NCBI RefSeq assembly: GCF_032854445.1
Contig: NC_088295.1
Coordinates: 60,121,249 to 60,185,248, forward strand
DNA length: 64,000 nucleotides
Direction of reading: 5' to 3'
From: Liolophura sinensis
Taxonomy: Eukaryota; Mollusca; Polyplacophora; Chitonida; Chitonidae
Positions 903 to 53,341 of the stretch are shown here, piece after piece; the first letter of the stretch is position 1, and every line of letters starts with the position of its first letter. A program made the translations under genes and the position numbers. The notes beneath the pieces were generated by a model, which did not search any database, was not told the DNA's origin, and saw nothing but the letters and a program-made list of their open reading frames with translations.

Positions 903-3900
903 CATCATTTTCTTCATACGCCAACTCCTGAAATATTCTGTCTAAATGTATATTACAGTTTGGTTCGGAAGTCCTGAAAGTGGAATTCAGAATACCCTTA
1001 AAGATTATTAAGGAAAAGAAACTAATGAAGACTGCCACTGAAATGTATACAAAATGAAAATAACATTTGACTGGTTGTTGTTGACAACCAGGTCTTGAAT
1101 AATAAGAGAAAGATGAACAAACATTCTGCCAGTAGAAAGCATGTCCCCTTCTGATTTGAGCTATCAGAGCTATCTATTACCCCTGAGTCACTGGGTCCTT
1201 TCGCCGTGCTGGCACGCTAACACTTGGCCACGGAGGTCCCTACCATTTGAGAATCTGAAAACAAGCACTTACAAAAGAAAGATTCTGCCCTCAGCTGGAA
1301 GTCCTTGTCTTCTGTAATCTATTCCAGAGTCCAAGGATAGAATGTCACAATATTGCTGCAATCATAAAAATGATAAAAAAAAACTTCCAAATAATGCAGA
1401 TTCGTCAATATATCTGAATACAACATCTTTCCTGTTTGGGTGCCCAGAGAAATGTTTTTATATTTTGTAACAGCCATCAAACCATCATTTCACCGCCAAG
1501 TGAAATGATTGTTCCCTGTGATAAATATTGGTTCAATAGGCTTAGCACTAACTGGTTTTCACTGACACCTATTGAACTACCAAAACACGAGAAAATGGTG
1601 AAATTGTAACCACTGAATAAACTTTTGAATAAACATTCATTCGCCCTGATGATAATTTAGACACTTGTTAAAATTCTTTTGAATGTTACTAAGCTTCAAG
1701 ATTACCTTTAACACACCAATAAATGGTATAAAATTACCACGCTGGAGTCCGTTCTTATACAAATCTGAAAATGGGAAAAACAGTGGAGAAATTATATATA
1801 CAACTCGTCTGTACACTTTTTCTTTTGACATACATGGACACAAAATCATAGCTTCTATGAACAACTGTCCTCTCAGGGAAAATTTGGCCCAAATTAGATT
1901 CTGACATAGACTTTGATGTCAATCGAATTTAGATTTTATTCAATAAAAATAAAGAAATAAAAGTATCACTTAAAGTGAACATAAAGTCAGCCACTAAACC
2001 TTAATTAATTAATTAAGTAGTACTAGTATTACAAAAATGTTCTAAATATATTTTAAAAATTCTACGCCACTTATCAACAAAATAAATAGCACACACTCTT
2101 CAGTACCTAGCCACTCATTTGGTGACGCCATTGTGCCATGTCATAGCTATCTAGAGTGACGTCACAAAACCTAGGAGCTCTCCCGTACCATCGGTATTAA
2201 ACAATGTAACAATGAGAAAATACAAACAAAAATGCCTGATACCCAACCAAAGAGTATCAGCTCTGTTTCGTCTTCAAAGGGCCAATGTTTCTTTTAGTTT
2301 GGCGCTTGGTCAGGGCGATGTTCGTGGATACAAGCGTCGTGTGTTAGAGGTCCTGATCGCCCTCATCCTGCATGGGTGTAAGCATTTGGCCTAGCTGGCT
2401 GTACCAACTTCAGGGAATTTACTGAAGACAGTAGGACCTTCTGACTGATAACAGACTTCTGCATTCAGAATTGGGGAAGATATTTTCATAATAAATCAGA
2501 CTTTGCTAAGAAAAAAAAAAGTCACAATACTTTTCTTAAAGCAATTTCTCTCCCTAGGTAGTTTTCTCACCAGGTCACCCTGACAAATTGCTGCAGTATC
2601 CTGCCCAATATGTATGCATTGTGACTCAGTTCCCTGATCTTAAATGTGTGGTCCAAAATGCATCAGTTTAACACTTAAACTAACCATAAAATCCAATTTA
2701 TTGCATCAATATCTGTCTCTCCACTATAAGAAACCACACTGGCAATTGAGTACTAATAGGTTTCTTGACATGACGGCCAATTATCATATGACGCTTTCAG
2801 CGCTAGTGATTGGCCAAGTTCATAAGGGCTTCTACAGCATGGCTACTCGGAGTGAATTGTCTGTCAGTGCCATATCCCAAATACTGAACTTCATCTTCTT
2901 GGCTTTAAAAACTTAACAGAATTTTTTTCACATATTTTCCCGTGATAACTGTGTCCTATATCATTTTTTCTATGTTTATATAGTGGCAGACTTTATGTTC
3001 ACTTTAAGGCTATGAGTCTGACATACACAAATATATTCCAGTATATAAAATGTTGAAAATACAGGTATGGACATCCATTTTCCACATCCTAAGGAATTCA
3101 TAGATTAATGCAAACACACTCCATTGCTTACAAACTTACCATCTGGGTGCCTATTTGAAGTAGCCACGATAACAATGCCATGTTCAAATAGCTCTGTAAA
3201 CAATCGCCTTAATATCACAGCGTCTGCTATATCCGTTACCTGCAAGAAATAAATTAGACCTTGAAATATCCAGTCATGGTTCACAGACAATGTAAACAAT
3301 GTAGCATGTAGTTTAACGAAAGAGCTGTAGCTAGCTTCACAAAACATGTACGTTCAAACAGCTCTGTAAACAATCGCCTTAATATCACAGCGTCTGCAAT
3401 ATCCGTTACCTGCAAGAAATAAATTAGACCTTGAAATATCCAGACATGGTTCATAGACAATGTAAACAATGTAGCATGTAGTTTAACGAAAGAGCTGTGG
3501 CTAGCTTCACAAAACATGTACACTCAAACAGCTCTGTAAACAATCGCCTATATATCACAGCGTCTGCAATATCTGTTACCTGCAAGAAATAAATTAGACC
3601 TTGAAATATCCAGTCATGGTTCATAGACAATGTAAACAATGTAGCATGTAGTTTAACGAAAGAGCTGTGGCTAGCTTCACAAAACATGTACATTCAAACA
3701 GCTCTGTAAACAATCGCCTTAATATCACAGCGTCTGCAATATCCGTTACCTGCAAGAAATAAATTAAACCCTGAAATATCCAGTCATCCTTCACAGATAA
3801 TGTAAACAATGTAGCATGTAGTTTAACGAAAGAGCTGTGGCTGGCTTCACAAAACATGTACATTCTATACAGAGCGTTAGTATGACATGCCAGTATGACT

Positions 3901-6900
3901 GTCATCCCAAAGACTTTAAAACTCGCTTGGCGCTCAGCACTGAGAGGACAGAGCTTAACTTTTCAGTAACAAAACCATTTCTGATTTCACAAAATTTCAC
4001 AAAAACAGCAAATGGCAAAAACAATGGGGACCTCGTACAACTTCTTCGCACCTGTAAATAAAGTGGTCCAAAGCTATGAGCCCCCATGTTCTTTCCTTTA
4101 TTACGTCATAATTATCGTTGTATGTGTGCTCATAAAACACCTACGTAGGAAACACAAATGCAATCCAATGTCTCAGAAGAAAATGACGTGTTCTACTGTG
4201 ATTTTGCACCTTTTTGTGTAGCTCGAGTCCTCCACTGACCAGCCTTACCTGAAACTCATCAAAACACAGCAACCAGGACTCCCCAGCTATCTGCTGAGCC
4301 ACAGGAGGTATGGGGTCAAACGCATCACCCTTTCTTACGCTGCTTCGTTTGGGCTGGAGTTTTTTGAGAGCATGAATTCCTGTTGATAAATTGAACAACA
4401 TTAATATAACAGTACAAAGAATTCACTGACACAAAATTTATAGTTAGGGTAAATTCAATATGGCTGATAGTGGAAGAAAATCATCACTCTTCAACTTTAT
4501 CTACTAGCCATTCTTGGGGATGAAGGCTAAACCTCCATTCTTTTTTCTTAAATTCACAAATATCCTACCCTTTTCCTATGTTGCACCTAACAATTTCTTG
4601 AACTTTCTTTCTCCCTTTAACCCCCCTCCCCCACTTTTACCCAAATTCTGTACTTGATGTTTGGTGAGCAGAACAGCTATTAACATCTGAACCTTTAATA
4701 AATAAACTTGTACGACGAAAATGTGTACATCTGGTTAATATATGTACGTTGATCAGATCAGTTTAAAAAGCAACAGTGGGCACATCTGTATACATGAAAT
4801 CCCTAAATCATTACTGTAGTGAGTGAGTGCTGGGGGTTTAACGTCAATTTTTCAGTCAGATGACGATGAAGGAATCCTTACAATGCACGTAATGTGCCTC
4901 CATGTTGCAGAACAGATTTCCACTGCTCTTTTATCTTGTGCTGCTTCACTGAGACGCCTTGCTGAAGGCAAGTAAGCCGACCCGCCTGAGCCATTATACC
5001 GATACGGGTTAACCAGAAGTTGCACTATCCCCTTCATGCTGAACGCCAAGCCAGGAAGCTGCACCTTCCTCTTTTAAAGGTGTGACTCGACCCAGGATTG
5101 ACCCTGGATCTACCACTCCCGAAGCAGATTACAACATTATATTTTATAAAGATGTGCTGGTAATTTGTTTGTTAAGACATTCATATTTAACAATACATGT
5201 TGAATTCATAACCTGGTTTAATTAGTTTCCCTAAAAAAGAAAGTAGCAGTGGCAATGTCACTTACTTTCATGCACATTTAACATGAACCTGTGGAAGTGG
5301 ACTCGCTGTTTTCTCTCCACGGAGCAGCAGCTGTGAAACATGTCCATTAACATGGTCTTTCCACAGCCTGGTGGTCACCAAAAATAAGCACAAATCAATA
5401 AGTTTACCTTGCATTAGCAACCATACAAGCTGACAGATGTAAAACAACAAAATAATTTAAATCACCATTTACACATCTAGTGATTTGCTATTTTCTGTCC
5501 AAATATATGTCAAATCTGCTCAATTTTGTGCTGACCTCAATGTTATTAAGCCATGAGCATGTCTCAGATTTAAATCAGTGTCATCAACTAATTAGATTGT
5601 AATAAGGGTAACATATTTCCCCGAGTTTTTGCAAACTGTTGGAGTAAAGCCCAAATTATAGTATTAGATGACAGACAACAATATCCCTCAGCCTGGATTC
5701 AAAACTTCTTTGTACAGAAGATTTAACTAATGGATTGGCTGAAACAATAATCTGACTCACACTTACAATGGATACTGCATTACTCTGAAGAAAACTGATT
5801 CTTACCTACACTTCCATGTAAGTAAAGCCCTTTTGTGGGTTTACTTTTCTTGTTTAGTCCTAATGCCTACAAATCAAAATGACAGAAGCTCATTTTCATA
5901 AGCCTAATGTTTATGTGGACGTTGCATGTTAAATTCTAGACAGAATGCTATTTACCAGTTTTATTTGACTTAACCACATTAGGTAAATCAGAGGGAAGAA
6001 AGACTGAAAACAGTCAATGACATAATATGTCCCACTTCAGACTTCTGCTGGTATCCCAATGCACTAATTTAGCTAACTCTGTTCAAATCAGTTATACAAA
6101 CAATGTAGAACAGCTTTCTACAAAAATACTGGGTTTACTGTGCTGGCTGATCTGAAAAATGAAGACAATATCTCACAAAAACAAATCTATAGCTGTTTGG
6201 CCTATCCAGTATGTTGAGGACATGTAACTTTCCCGTATGAGGTAGTGTACCTTATGTAATGCTCAGTATAGCCTGATATGCTGATCAGTCTTACAATGTT
6301 AGTTGGGTGTCAGGCTGTATTTGAGAGCTTGGTGTAATTCTTCACGCTCTTTGACTTACAGGTTGTAATCAAACAGTTAGAGCTTGATTTGATTTTGTAT
6401 TGATTGGTTTGATCTGTCCTGCTGTTCTCAAGAATATTTCACTTATATGATGATGGCCAGCATTAAAGTGGGGAGGGGGGAGGGGGGAGGGGGGTTCCAG
6501 GCTCAGGGAAGCCCACGACCATTCGCAGATTACAGGCAGACCTTCCCAAGTATGAACGGAGAGAAAGCCAGCATGAACTGGACTTGAACAAGCCTGATTT
6601 GAATATTGCAAATAAAATGGAATACCCAATTGTGATTTCAGTGAAGATTCCCATGAGCCATACTCACCTTTCCTATCCAACTTGTAGATGGTGGCTGGTA
6701 GCCCTTCAAGGCTTTGTTCAGGTTTTCCAACTGTTGGATAACAAATCCCTGATGTGCATCATATCGCAGTTCATTTGCTTCGACTTTAGCCTTGTAAGCC
6801 TCCACAACATTGTCATACTTTCTGATACTCGTCGATTCTGCAGTCTGGGAAGACTGAGCAAACCCGTTTTCCTCTGCATTTAGTTTGGTCACTGTGCTGT

Positions 6901-14879: not shown

Positions 14880-15088
14880 CAATGGGAAACTCGATGATGA
14901 GCTAACCACAGTCCAAATGATAGTAGACTGCATTATCTTCTGTGACGTTACAATGCATGTGTACTTCATGTATGTTTTATGAGCACACTACACGGACAAT
15001 TGTGACGTAATAAAGGAAAGAGCAAATGAGTTAAGTTTTGGACTGCCTTGATACAGGCAGGAAGGAGCTTTACAAGTTCCCCATTTAC
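14880..15088 (-). mobile_element. Interspersed element A (AATGGG...CCCATT ends), best copy
   Basis: Ends AATGGGAAACTCG and CAAGTTCCCCATT are short inverted repeats. Core on minus: CTCTTTCCTTTATTACGTCA, GTGTGCTCATAAAACATACA. Related copies are at 299-520, 4012-4230, 18790-18998 and 19160-19335. Intergenic, SNX3-PDE10A. Confidence 0.72.
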
Positions 15089-16970: not shown

Positions 16971-19900
16971 CTAGCTTGTATTCCCTACAGCAATCCTTCT
17001 CCAATTCTCCATATTTTCCCTGAAACAGACAAGCAGGTTACTGGGAAGTTAGAAGTAAGGCATGACAAATGTTGATGAAATTGTTTTTAAGAGGATTCCG
17101 CAGGAAAACTGGATGTTTTAAGTGTTTTAACAAGACTTCGTAAAGTTTGAGCAAAAAACTTTGCTCCCACGTCACGCTAATAATACATACAGCAATTTGT
17201 GACACTGGGATTTTGGGAGACATTTTTGAGTGGTGAAAGAATGGAATCCTCTCATTATTCTTGTCAAAAAAGTGGAGCTATCTGACAGTGGCCTGTTTTA
17301 CAAAGCAGCTGCATCTTGCGCCTGGCATAACGTTCAAGACAACATATACTGGTAGTGTAGACATGTTGCCACAGCCAATGCACTGGACACAACACTTCGT
17401 ACACCACACTTTGTAAAACCGGGCTCTGATCAGCATGGGCAAATGCTCCTTTTGTTGAACTATTCTGAGACTTTCAAACTCATAATGAACAATCATGTTA
17501 TTAAACCTTTGAATGATCCGGAATGTTTATGGATCATTCACTACCCATTCAGGTTATATATTATGGAAATCAGCTAAATGTGAACTGTGACCCTATACCC
17601 TATAAGACATTGGGAAATCCATGCGTGCCACACACTACCACCATTCTCTAGTTCCTCAAACTCCATGAACATTTACCCTACAATTTTTGTTGTGTCAATT
17701 CAACACCTTCATGCATACAGAAGCGAGAATGGGGTCAACAAAATGCAACTGTTTCAATTCTGATACACAAAAGGCCCCAAAGCTAATCCTTAGTGTGTAT
17801 GAAAGAGCCAATGGGGAATCATGTAATTATTAAATATTAAGTAAATTGTTAACAAAACAGTAACCAAAATACTGCATATCTAAATTTGAATTCCAAACCA
17901 AAAATCCTTTTCTACTGAAAACCAGAAATGTTAGTTAATCGTGGGATATCATTTCCACCTCTTGACACCCAAACAGTGTTGATATTCTCCACATCAGAAC
18001 GTTCTCATGACAGGGTCAAGAAAGTATGCTCACTTGCAGCTGTCCAGCAATGGTCGAGTGCCTGGTAAGGCGTCACACAGGGTTTGGTAACAAGGGGTGC
18101 AGACGAACTGTAGGAAGCCGACCTGTTGTTTAGGCATTTCATCTTTCTTGTCCCTATCCATCATCGGTAATACATCCAAGCCTCTCTTCTTTTCCTCATC
18201 ACCCTGAGAAAAACATAAAACAGATACAGAGATAACAATAGTACTGACATTTATTTACACTAACTGTAAATAAGCAAATGGCATCAGCTTGGCACAGAAT
18301 TATATAAAAAGAAAAAAAAATTGAACATTGAATGCATGCCACAGATTCATATTTTATAGAATGTTTTTGTCAGCAAAAGAAAAAGAGAAAAGGATTATTA
18401 ATGAAGATTTATAATGTCAACTCTTCAACAAAACTCAACAAATGTTTTTTTCTTCATATTTTTCATCTTCCTAACTGGGAAATCAAGGCAGTAAGACAGA
18501 AAAATGTTATTGAAAATCGTCATACTCAGGTACAAGTTAAAAAAAAAATCCTTTTTTCCCTCAAAACATGATAGACCTGATCAAAATTATTGACAGGAGG
18601 CTGACACTGTGACACCATGCAATCACAACTGATATCCAAGGGTGCCTGACAGAACACCAAACAGTGCTAAGCATACAGTGGTCGAATGCTCCATACCAAG
18701 GCAAAAAAAAAAGATTTTCAGTATTCTTGACATGAAGAGAATACATTACTATGTAAACAGAGGCTATAAAACATTGGGATGTGTGTAACGCACTCGTAAA
18801 ACAGTTTTCCGCCTATAGTTCAACTTCCAAAGCTGCAAACTCATGTTCTTTCCTTTATTAATGTCACAATTATCAGTGTATGTGCACTCATAAACATATA
18901 TGAAGCCCACACGCACTGCAAAGAAAACAGAAGAAAACGATGTGTGCTACTGTCATTTGGACCTTCTGTTTAGCATGTCCTTGACTCTCCCATTATTCTG
19001 ATATAGAGGGGCTTTGCACATGAAACAATGGTCTCAAAGGAATCACTTTTGCAGTAACTGTCAGCAAGTTACACCAGAATTCTATTCTGGAGTTCCCCTT
19101 AATATCTTTTATCTCATGTCAATGGGATGCTTGAGGAAGAGCTACACTAAAGCTCTAAATAGCAGTAGGACTCCATTCCTTCAGGGCCGCTGCTGTGCTT
19201 ATGTACTGTATCAATGTTTATATAAGCACAAATACACCTATACTTGTGACGTAATAAAGAAAATGAAAGAAATAAGTGCTCATAGTTTTGGGCAGTTTTG
19301 CTACAAGTGGGAAGGTGTTTTACGAATTCACCATTATTTCCACAGAGCAAAACAAAACGTCACTTTTAACTGCCAAAAAACATTTACTGATATTATAAAT
19401 TGTGAATGCATTTCTAACCTGCATATAAAACTCTTCATAGACCAGCTCTGCAGTTTCTTGTTGTACTCTCCAAGGTTTGCACACCCCAGACAAGTCAGCT
19501 GCTGTCATTGTCAGATTCTTTATCAGGTCTCTATGGCAAAAGTTAGAAAACATGCATTAATATACTGATCTAATCACAGAAAAGACACGTTTCTCTGTGC
19601 TTTTCCACAAAATGCACAATAATGTAAGCCATCAACCTGAAATATTTAACCTTAGGGCTGACATGTCTGAACCGTCACTCCAGAACATGCAAGTGACAAT
19701 TCATAATCGATAATGTTGTACCGGATCAGTCAACCGGATATAGCACACATTGGTTAAATATGTTTAACCTTTCTCTGGCACCATGTTGTCACAATGACGA
19801 CCTAGCAGACACCTGCAAGCAGGACCCTGACACCATCTTATTGACATCAAACCGTCCTTTCCCAGCGCATCATAAGGACATCACAGAAAAGACAGTACGA

Positions 19901-42500: not shown

Positions 42501-45500
42501 ATTTCTGTGAGTTCAGGTCTAGCTCATGCTGGCTTCCTCTCCAGTTGTACGTGGGAAGGCCTGCCAGGAACCTGCAGGTGATCGTTGGTTTCCCCTGGGT
42601 TCTACTTGGTTTCCTCCCACAATAATGGTGGCCACTATTGTATAAGTGAAATATTCTGCGTGAAATTGATCTCATATCAAATATATAAATAAACAAGTAA
42701 ATCTTGACATTTATGTAAAATATTCATAAGTGCTATCTTCTCCATTTATACCCAAAGTGGAGCATTTATGTTTTTTTCTCATTAGCAAGGTTTTGTCCCA
42801 AGTGTCAAACCCAAACATATATTATTGGTAATCTCCAAAAAACCTGCTTGATTGTCACTCAGTTTCAGGGCAGAGGTGATGTACATGTATATGGGTCTTC
42901 TTAGGGTCAGGTATTTCTTGAGTATGTGGATGGTCATGGCTGGTGTTGTGGTAAACCAGTGAATATATCAGACATTAGGATTGTTGTGATGCGACTATAG
43001 TAATGATATAAAGCAGTGTTAAACCCAGATCTTTCTTAAAATTGTTCTGTGTTATTATTTGATGATTTTCTATGTACAGGTGCGGATCAAGGGGAGATTA
43101 CTGTGTCGAAAAGGTGTTCTCTTCTTGAAATCTGAAAATGTGGAGATACTGGGAGGTGAGGTGGACTCTCTTGTGGAGAGCAATACACAGGACAGACTGC
43201 TGCAGAATGCACTGTGAGTGGTTTCGTGAAGAAACTATGCTGGCAAATATTTGAAAACTTGTGTGGTAAAATTTTGTCTTTAGAGATAAATCTTTACAGT
43301 GAATTGTCATAAATTTATTCGATCTGCAGAAATAAATGAATGACAGCGACTTCACGGCTCAAAGAGGAACTGTAGATTATATATTTAATGTGATAGGCCA
43401 TAGATAACTGAAGGAGAAATTAATGAAATGGCTGAGATAAAATTTGATAGAATTTGTAATCTATGAAATATTGCTCATATGAAATATACTATCAAACAAT
43501 AATTTTTTATTGAGATATTCTTATTTTTATTTATTTATGTTTTCAGAGCATCCATTGGCCAATCCTCCACAGAAGATCATCATATGGAGTTTAATAATAC
43601 ACAGATAACTCATCCAACAAACAGCACTGCTGGGCCTAACACTGGGAGGCAGGGGGAGACAACTGGAGGCCTCCTGAGGGGAAACGGGAGTGGATTACAG
43701 AGTAACTCATCTGCAGGAAGGCCACCATCAAATAGAATACATAATAGTGGGAGCTATAATACAGCAGGTAATTAGGCAGCTCAAAGCTTTAAAATAAATG
43801 CAATTTTGTGTGAACAAACTCTTCAGAGTGCAGCCCTGTCAGACATTGACATCAAATGATAAAATTGGTTGATTGTTGTTTCTCACTGTACTTAAGTATA
43901 TTCCACTTACTGGTACATGGCAGAGGCCAGCAGCATAGGTGGATGAGACTGGAGGGCCAGAAGCAGACCATAGACTTATGTTAAATAACTGGAATAACAT
44001 TCTGAATTGTGATGCACAGATATTCTCCTGCAGAGCAAGCCCAGTGTGTATCATCTAGTGCCACATTGGTGTGAAGCATGTGATCTCTATCATTGAGTGC
44101 CACATGGGTGGGAAGCATGTGATCTTTATCATTGAGTGCCACATGGGTGGGAAGCATGTGATCTCTATCATTGAGTGCCACAGTGGTGGGAAGCATGTGA
44201 TCTCTATCATCGAGTGCCACATGGGTGGGAAGCATGTGATCTCTATCATCGAGTGCCACATGGCTGGGAAGCATGTGGCCTCTATCATTGAGTGCCACAT
44301 GGGTGGGAAGCATGTGATCTTTATCATTGAGTGCCACATGGGTGGGAAGCATGTGATCTCTATCATTGAGTGCCACAGTGGTGGGAAGCATGTGATATCT
44401 ATCATCGAGTGCCACATGGGTGGGAAGCATGTGATCTTTATCATTGAGTGCCACATGGGTGGGAAGCATGTGATCTTTATCATTGAGTGCCACAGTGGTG
44501 GGAAGCATGTGATCTCTATCATCGAGTGCCACATGGGTGGGAAGCATGTGATCTCTATCATGGAGTGCCACATGGGTGGGAAGCATGTGATCTTTATCAT
44601 TGAGTGCCACATGGGTGGGAAGCATGTGATCTCTGTCATCGAGTGCCACATGGGTGGGAAGCATGTGATCTCTATTATTGAGTGCCACATTGGTGGGAAG
44701 CATGTGATCTCTAGCGACCTTCATGTAGGACCACTTGAACGCAAACACAAACGAGCTGTTGACCGCTTATTGCCACCAAGGTCATGAGAACACTCAAGGC
44801 AGAATTCCCTGCCATAGACTTGGGATTGAACCAATACCTTGGTATTGTTTTGAAAATGAAATGTGCTTCAGTATAAGACTTGAAAGACTTGTAAATTGAA
44901 CAGTCAATCTTATCTTTTTATAGAGGTTATTACTTCAAATTTTTCTCACTTTCTTGAATTTTGCCACTTCATTCTCATACATGTGACTTGCGCAAATACT
45001 TCTGATGGCATTGCGTGTGTTTGTTCACTTATATGTATTCTGATGAGGGTTTGTCAAATTTTAGGTTCTTACAATCTTCAATAGAACATTCACATATCTT
45101 TTACTGTGCTCCTCCAAGGAAAGATTAAAACATATTAAATTAATCGACATTGTGCCAACTCTCAGAAGTTATGGACAGAGCAAACAAGCAATAATTAATT
45201 AATTATTTCTTTTACATTTCAGCAGATGAAATGGATGATGATGATGATGACTTCTTGGCATCCCTTGGAACATCAGATCTAGCTGCTTTGGATGAAAATG
45301 TGAGAAATTCGGTCAACATTATGGTCTTAAGTATTTGTTTGGCAAATTTCAGTTCATCATTTTACAGATAAATAGGAACATTATCCCACCTTCCTGTAGT
45401 TTTGTCAAGATGTGTGTTTTAACATTTCATTATCGGGCAGGTTGAGGTGTAATGCTGCCATAAAATAATCTCCACTTACATGACAGAAGTTAGGTTTATG

Positions 45501-51831: not shown

Positions 51832-53341
51832 TACTACTGGAATAAAGTAACTGTGCATCATCTGCACTTATGCCATGCTCTAATGAATTAAGATAAGAAT
51901 ATGATATTTGGTATTCTGTTTAATCACTGTTTAACTGTTGACAGGATAATCTCGAAATCTTTATGATTTGACACTAGGCATCATGATACGCCCTCGAAGA
52001 GATGTGGTGTCAAAAGTCAGTTCACAAACTCAATATCGTGTGTGTCCACCACTGGCGCTGATGCAGGCTTGACAACGACGACGCATAGACGACACTAAGC
52101 GAGTGAAGAAAGCTTGGGGAATGTTGTTCCATGTCTGAAGCAACATTTGTCCCAAATCAGCTAACGTCAATGGCTGATTCGGGCCCTGACGTAATCGCCG
52201 TTCCATTTCATCCCATGCGTGCTCGATAGGGGACAGGTCAGGAGAAACTGCTGGCCAAGGGAGTACCGGAATGTTGTGCTGTCTCAAGAAATCCGTCACA
52301 ACACGAGCGACATGTGGACGGGCATTATCTTGCTGAAGTGTGATGTTACGTCCATGTCCTTGAATGAACGCTTGCACATGAGGCAGAATGATCTCGTCCC
52401 TGTATCGCAGGCCTGTCAGATTGCCATTCACAATGACAAGTTGGGTCCGCCCATGAGATGTGATGCCTCCCCATACCATAACGCTGCCGCCACCAAACGC
52501 TCGACGTTGAACAACGCACGCGTCAGCATACTGTTCACCAGGACGTCTGTACACCCTTGCCCTGCCATCTGAGCCGTCCAGATGAAATCTCGACTCGTCA
52601 GTGAACAGAACACCATCCCAATCTTGTCTCCTGTACCGTAGATGTTGTCTGCACCAGACAAGACGTGCCTGTCGGTGACGTTGAAGCAAAATCGGACGTA
52701 TGGCAGGACGTCTGGGCCGGATGTTGCGCTCCCGCAGTCGGTTCCGTACAGTCCTGGAACTGATTGGGCGTAAGTCAGGAATGGTCCGAGCAGTCAAACT
52801 GGAACTCTGGAATCGATTCCTTAGATGGGTCAGCCGAATATGGTTGTCTTGCTGACGTGACGTCACACGTGGATGGCCGGACCGGGGCAAATCTCTCGTG
52901 TTCCCATTCTGTTGAAAACGTCGCCATAGAGAGGATATCGTGTTTCGATGGACACCAAAATGTCTGGCAACTTCATTCTGGGCCATTCCAGTCTCCGGCA
53001 TACCCACGGCGCGGAGACGCTGATTTTCTGTAAGCCGTGGCATGTTGTACGCACAATTTATGTTGAAGTTAACGTGTTTTCCACAACATTTAGAGGCTAA
53101 AGAATAATCAACAGTTCTTCAATTTTCGAAATCAGGTGTGTGAACTTCATGTGTCAAACATCATGCAGGATGTGAGTCATGTCATTATACACGAAGTGCA
53201 CGTGCCACGCGCGATACGTGACATGACATTTCATGAAAAATGCTTGGCTAAATGTTTATTGACGGTTAGGTTTATAACTTTTCAAACATCTTTTGTTTTG
53301 TCCCATTTTCTGTGATGCACAGTTACTTTTTTCCATTAGTA
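51832..53341 (-). mobile_element. Tc1/mariner DNA transposon, complete, with TIRs and TA duplication
   Basis: The element is 1510 bp. The left end and the reverse complement of the right end share about 27 of 29 terminal bases, TACTA-C/A-TGGAA-T/A followed by AAAGTAACTGTGCATCA. It is bounded by TA at 51830-51831 and TA at 53342-53343, the target duplication typical of Tc1/mariner. It carries one intact transposase ORF on minus. The outer flanks join into one interspersed SINE, so the insertion is nested. Confidence 0.95.
52030..53043 (-). CDS. Tc1/mariner-family transposase, intact DD34E
   Basis: Single 337-aa ORF with no frameshift or stop. An N-terminal helix-turn-helix (AQNEVARHFGVHRNTISSLW, residues 21-40) is followed by a second HTH-like region and a basic linker (about 95-125). 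The catalytic triad is visible: D149 in FTDESRF, D239 in QQDNARPH and E274 in SPIEHAWDEM, with 34 residues between the second D and E, hence DD34E. The glycine-rich box GGGSVMVWGGI (about 184-194) is typical of Tc1 transposases. Full length plus near-identical TIRs suggests recent, possibly current, mobility. GC content is higher than in the surrounding introns. Confidence 0.97.
   Translation of the reverse strand: MPRLTENQRLRAVGMPETGMAQNEVARHFGVHRNTISSLWRRFQQNGNTRDLPRSGHPRVTSRQQDNHIRLTHLRNRFQSSSLTARTIPDLRPISSRTVRNRLRERNIRPRRPAIRPILLQRHRQARLVWCRQHLRYRRQDWDGVLFTDESRFHLDGSDGRARVYRRPGEQYADACVVQRRAFGGGSVMVWGGITSHGRTQLVIVNGNLTGLRYRDEIILPHVQAFIQGHGRNITLQQDNARPHVARVVTDFLRQHNIPVLPWPAVSPDLSPIEHAWDEMERRLRQGPNQPLTLADLGQMLLQTWNNIPQAFFTRLVSSMRRRCQACISASGGHTRY

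Follow-up and report, generated by a model that had tools for sequence, protein, structure and literature searches.

Known recursive splice sites carry G at +5 within a YAG|GTRAG consensus and occur typically in very long introns. In the human genes UBC and VCX3A, dual-specific splice sites have been described as tandem arrays (Duan et al. 2024, PMC10809524). A review (PMC3443670) covers introns gained when an AGGT-bearing segment of the genome is duplicated in tandem. For human genes in segmental duplications, De Grassi and Ciccarelli (2009, PMC2812944) reported variable internal tandem repeats that lie where exon and intron meet, and the references cited there include Rogers 1989 and Zhuo et al. 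2007. In a stwintron, as defined in PMC8469720, an internal intron interrupts a splice element. The array described here lies in the AFG1L gene of a chiton, within a window of 64,000 nucleotides (C1:60121249-60185248 of the genome), and it resembles the UBC and VCX3A arrays in that AG|GT stands at an equal place in every unit and the distance from GT to AG is the unit length.

TRF detected the array in the window with a period of 170, 4.0 copies, 95% matches, no indels and a score of 1247, and a second, separate repeat search returned copy spacings of 170, 170 and 170 (Table 1). The first-pass annotation had placed four copies of a 170-bp unit at 3182-3866, and both searches confirmed this. 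Read on the minus strand, each unit consisted of 113 nt of intron end, with CTTGCAG as its last bases, followed by 57 nt of exon head. Each array acceptor read CTTGCAG|GTAAC, with CAG|GTAAC at the matching position of the unit in all four copies, and in three of three steps the next AG followed the GT at 170 nt. The same annotation had described a minus-strand AFG1L gene in which three truncated copies with intact CTTGCAG acceptors accompany a single complete exon, and all of this held; the open reading VTDIADAVI(L/Y)RRLFTELFE was likewise found in four of four copies. Its estimate of about 58 nt of exon per unit was right about the exon head and slightly off in length, as 57 nt of the 100-nt exon were measured. 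A genome search over 609,464,459 bases in 632 contigs, in which the best candidates alone were scored and very common words were skipped, returned four matches to the unit, all at the AFG1L array. The array is real and local.

We identify the gene as AFG1L, encoding the AFG1 ATPase, a mitochondrial ATPase. Eight exons (E2-E9 in our numbering) fused into a single open frame of 282 residues, and the product matched PF03969 (AFG1_ATPase) without a break at 235 bits (E 1.5e-69, profile positions 4-236 of 361). The joined exons contained GCGKT and LLCFDEF, which we take to be the P-loop and Walker B, respectively. Skipping of the complete exon E6 resulted in an early stop. A genome search with PF03969, again with the best candidates alone scored, gave seven matches, all within C1:60120221-60126637 and all belonging to this one gene, which runs past the window edge into the adjoining piece L005. 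The unit and PF03969 genome searches, on the candidates scored, revealed neither a second AFG1L gene nor dispersed copies of the unit, and no relatives of AFG1L were found in the PDB at E 0.01. Elsewhere in the window, a transposase-like open frame of 362 residues was observed at 52030-53118 (PF13358 DDE_3, PF01498 HTH_Tnp_Tc3_2), and a 39-bp unit repeated 17 times at 44049-44713 left several frames open on both strands.

Table 1. Coordinates of the AFG1L array, its surroundings in the window, and three further arrays at exon edges elsewhere in the genome.
Feature	Position	Strand	Evidence
AFG1L exon E5, ending in Walker B (...LLCFDEFQ); donor CAG|GTAAGG at 4249/4248	4249..4379	-	Reading frame, splice signals
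1009-nt intron holding three truncated copies	3240..4248	-	Splice signals, sequence
Copy of a dispersed repeat, upstream of the array within the same intron	4019..4222		72-76% identity between copies
Tandem array, 113 nt intron end and 57 nt exon head per unit	3183..3865	-	TRF, second repeat search, copy alignment
Truncated exon head C4, starting at 3749, transcribed first; acceptor at 3750; CAG|GTAACG	3693..3749	-	Sequence
Putative removable 170-nt GT...AG segment between C4 and C3	3580..3749	-	Sequence
Truncated exon head C3, starting at 3579, L to Y change; acceptor at 3580; CAG|GTAACA	3523..3579	-	Sequence
Further putative removable 170-nt GT...AG segments	3410-3579 and 3240-3409	-	Sequence
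Truncated exon head C2, starting at 3409; acceptor at 3410; CAG|GTAACG	3353..3409	-	Sequence
Complete exon E6, 100 nt, starting at 3239; donor ATG|GTAAGT	3140..3239	-	Frame, splice signals, copy alignment
L020, C2H2 zinc-finger exon, acceptor side; 52-bp unit x 22	G000:C10:13160800-13164300		zf-met 2.5e-5, exon behind last copy
L021, arylsulfatase B exon, donor side; 61-bp unit x 42	G000:C6:71571800-71575300		PDB 1fsu, 7.5e-7
L024, COMMD6 exon, donor side; 85-bp unit x 15.9	G000:C8:2593300-2596300		COMMD6 match 7e-14

Donor strength was scored with a human donor matrix applied to the chiton gene, and ten authentic AFG1L donors, at 5.5-12.2 bits, served as the yardstick. On this matrix, CAG|GTAACG, present in three copies, scored 7.43 bits, above three of the ten authentic donors, and CAG|GTAACA, present in C3, scored 7.20 bits, above two of the ten. 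Between the first truncated acceptor and the acceptor of the complete exon, no GT other than CAG|GTAAC(G/A) scored above 2.6 bits, and in eight other introns examined, five of 360 GT sites reached 7.2 bits. The donor of the complete exon scored 10.5 bits and that of the upstream exon E5 scored 11.5 bits. As every acceptor reads CAG|GTAAC, a feature that the first-pass annotation had overlooked, the best donor of each truncated copy coincides with its own acceptor. Every unit also contained, besides its GT and AG, a pyrimidine tract and a branch-point-like CTAAT (TTAAT in C4). The array acceptors thus take the form of dual-specific sites, and the units that of intron-like GT...AG segments. In principle, any unit could be removed as a small intron, and the normal mRNA would be left whatever path was taken. 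From all three truncated acceptors, read-through continued for 42 codons and then met a stop.

Among the four copies, 16 of 170 columns were variable, some changes being private to one copy. Counting as C1 the copy that holds the complete exon, pairwise differences over 170 nt were 6 (C1-C2), 9 (C1-C3), 10 (C1-C4), 5 (C2-C3), 8 (C2-C4) and 11 (C3-C4). The earlier statement that copies 2-4 resemble one another more closely than any of them resembles the real exon was therefore wrong, as C1-C2 differ less than either C2-C4 or C3-C4. Variable columns made up 10 of 113 in the intron part and 6 of 57 in the exon part (P=0.78); this equal variability fits an absence of selection on the truncated heads, and the comparison of column variation between the two parts across the four copies gave no signal of such selection. 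The splice-site columns 97-118 were invariant (0 of 22, with 2.1 expected; P=0.10), which leaves weak selection on these signals conceivable; in the wider stretch of columns 94-119, 2 of 26 were variable (P=0.54).

The joints of the array pointed to its origin. The exon reads ...TTTGAA|CATGG and the intron ahead of the array ...TATAGAA|TGTACATG, while the copy joint reads ...TTTGAA|TGTACATG and is seen again between copies with single-base changes, so that three bases, GAA, are common to both sides of the duplication joint. The simplest history would be a single tandem duplication via these three bases, in which base 57 of the exon that follows Walker B would have been fused to intron sequence 113 nt ahead of that exon, followed by unequal exchange that raised the number of copies to four. 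A dispersed repeat as the source of the array was not supported because the unit was found nowhere else in the genome search. The intron does carry a dispersed repeat upstream of the array, diverged copies of which (72-76% identity) were observed at 350-492, 14915-15085, 18842-18974 and 19215-19339.

We consider it likely that the array is a neutral local duplication, probably harmless, which exon definition allows splicing to bypass; stepwise removal may serve as a rescue. The last acceptor would be chosen as the sole one followed by a strong donor (ATG|GTAAGT, 100 nt away); since only the last copy has such a donor within exon range, exon definition should pick it, and the truncated copies would not be defined as exons. 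The array would then be a near-neutral passenger carried in the intron. This reading is favored by the single location of the unit, the open reading frame intact over eight exons and the unbroken 235-bit PF03969 match, as well as by the even variability of the intron and exon parts and the frequency of long-period arrays in this genome. Against use of the last acceptor stands the identity of all four acceptors over the last 17 intron bases, and in classic duplicated-acceptor competition experiments, the upstream acceptor was often favored. If an upstream acceptor were used, the joined exon would again end in CAG|GTAAC and the remainder could be spliced out 170 nt at a time, yielding an identical mRNA, and transcripts that failed in this would meet the stop after 42 codons and be degraded. 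That such a ladder is the regular route, in which the first acceptor is used, the regenerated CAG|GTAAC serves as a donor and 170-nt units are removed singly up to the complete exon, appears unlikely. Every unit offers the GT, branch-point-like motif, pyrimidine tract and AG that the ladder calls for, and AG|GT at every acceptor scored 7.2-7.4 bits on the human matrix, above two to three of the ten authentic donors; however, the C at +5 makes for a weak donor compared with the 11.5-bit donor of the upstream exon, and an intron of 1,009 nt does not need stepwise removal.

Competition from three intact acceptors ahead of the real one, together with the premature stop on read-through, could also produce unproductive transcripts stopping after 42 codons and so lower AFG1L output, perhaps in dependence on copy number; we regard this as quite improbable, as the copies look neutral by column variation. 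The first-pass annotation had proposed, as an alternative to the truncated acceptors being ignored, that GTGAAG, about 15 nt into each tail, could act as a cryptic donor to yield proteins with repeated ATPase segments. The motif was measured at 12 nt. The 69-nt pieces ending at GTGAAG keep the reading frame and contain no stops, their inclusion would give proteins with one to three repeats of a 23-residue ATPase segment, and the one-insert product still matched PF03969 at 248 bits summed, compared with 235 without the insert. The donor strength did not support it. TTTT|GTGAAG scored 0.58 bits against 5.5-12.2 for the authentic donors, and with the insert, which lies directly after Walker B, the AFG1_ATPase match was no longer single but fell into two stretches. 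Inclusion of such pseudo-exons is very improbable, and it was dropped as the main reading because of the poor donor score. An assembly artefact is scarcely credible. The array was read in one assembly only (Liolophura japonica, GCA_032854445.1), but 16 of 170 columns differ between copies, private changes included, and the HiFi reads used, which averaged 8,347 bp at 14x according to PMC11068029, exceed the length of the 683-bp array plus its unique flanks. Passive carriage of a local duplication remains our preferred account of the AFG1L array.

Long-period tandem arrays are common in this genome. Arrays with a period of at least 100 and at least 2.8 copies, after merging, occurred once each in 5 of 15 pieces (203 kb), one of them being a satellite that filled its piece; the sample comprised 13 arbitrarily placed 10-kb pieces (one satellite), L005 and the window. 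Tandem pattern searches of the genome returned 16 matches to TTGCAGGTAA and 39 to TTTCAGGTAA, in 20 clusters by count, of which 19 were examined (the window and 18 loci, L019-L036, with one on C12 left out). An exon edge inside an array, supported by homology, was found in 4 of these 19 clusters: AFG1L, a zinc-finger gene, arylsulfatase B and COMMD6. The zinc-finger array carried 11 TTGCAGGTAA sites and shared the architecture of the AFG1L array, its unit combining a 3' splice site with the first part of the zinc-finger exon. The other two lay on the donor side. The arylsulfatase B match reached the last residue of the exon, the last 15 nt of which lay inside an array counted at 42 copies that extends to near the end of the retrieved piece; in Pfam, unlike in the PDB, a search with this piece found no match at E 1. 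The COMMD6 match also reached the last residue of its exon, with the exon tail and donor inside the array. Suggestive flanks without homology support were seen at L027, L028, L031, L034 and L036, and the L027 piece, the one of these five that was searched, had no PDB match at E 1. L029 (G000:C4:15615200-15618200) contained no array, and an exon-like open stretch lay between two TTTCAGGTAA sites; both of its edges read TTTCAG|GTAA, acceptor and donor alike. At L022 (G000:C2:18224000-18227500), a 36-bp unit repeated 22 times within a 334-residue open frame had seven TTGCAGGTAA sites, and a UBC-like coding array is possible there. Two GAAA control patterns gave five clusters (L037-L041), in which no exon edges were found by eye.

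Whether tandem arrays are enriched for AG|GTAA was explored in the same searches and is not claimed. Counted by eye with a 20-kb join, so that a cluster is not necessarily an array, CAGGTAA after TTG, TTT, TTC and TTA gave 9, 11, 8 and at least 31 clusters from 16, 39, 50 and 142 matches, and CAGGAAA after the same triplets gave 2, 3, 10 and 10 clusters from 2, 11, 36 and 39 matches. Reversed-pattern controls returned 7, 27, 5 and 71 matches for the GTAA patterns and 2, 2, 2 and 9 for the GAAA patterns. As background, 12 pieces (120 kb, satellite piece L017 excluded) held 20 CAGGTAA and 34 CAGGAAA. The pattern pairs disagreed, with TTC reversed in clusters, and the two controls of 27 and 71 were high; for these reasons enrichment was not claimed. 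The search pattern is also itself the donor consensus, and donor-side arrays were therefore found with bias, leaving enrichment unproven. It is doubtful, at present, that the AFG1L, zinc-finger, arylsulfatase B and COMMD6 arrays form one 'self-excising' class, in which exon-edge arrays would survive through a dual-specific repeated edge, with units spliced out in unit-length steps and copy number drifting while the mRNA stays unchanged.

The AFG1L array represents a natural competition among duplicated splice sites, in which four alike acceptors share one intron and a single complete exon stands behind them, and thus a natural test of whether exon completeness decides splice-site choice. Public RNA-seq of this chiton species from five tissues is listed in PMC11068029. 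With the three further exon-edge arrays, it becomes testable whether duplications that span a splice site are tolerated mainly at AG|GT boundaries, an idea proposed earlier from human genes such as UBC.

Compared with the known systems, the AFG1L acceptors share with recursive splice sites the CAG|GTAA form, in which acceptor and donor are juxtaposed; they depart from the consensus by the C at +5, reading GTAACG or GTAACA, and they lie in an intron of about 1 kb. In contrast to a stwintron as defined in PMC8469720, AFG1L has an uninterrupted upstream donor, CAG|GTAAGG, and an uninterrupted last acceptor. In AGGT-duplication intron gain, a copied AGGT-bearing segment likewise creates a potential donor and acceptor. 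There, however, an exonic segment is copied and a new intron arises, whereas in AFG1L an existing acceptor was copied, 113 of the 170 nt of the unit are intronic, and the expected mRNA has no new intron position. The repeats of De Grassi and Ciccarelli (PMC2812944) also lie in tandem across exon-intron boundaries and can form new introns; their units average 30 bp in recent human paralogs, in contrast to 170 bp at the one locus found in this mollusc. The literature search returned no paper on a chiton tandem repeat that includes an intron and splice site, and in the parts of the literature covered, no earlier description of the AFG1L array was found. In anatomy, the array fits a known kind, the tandem dual-specific array. 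As in UBC and VCX3A, units could be removed from the RNA with the flanking join unchanged, which for AFG1L is predicted from the sequence only. The UBC unit is wholly coding and, at 228 nt, a multiple of three, whereas the AFG1L unit is part intron and part exon and, at 170 nt, is not; use in RNA has been shown for UBC, while the AFG1L array, which is known from its DNA, lies unlike that of UBC inside a pre-existing intron.
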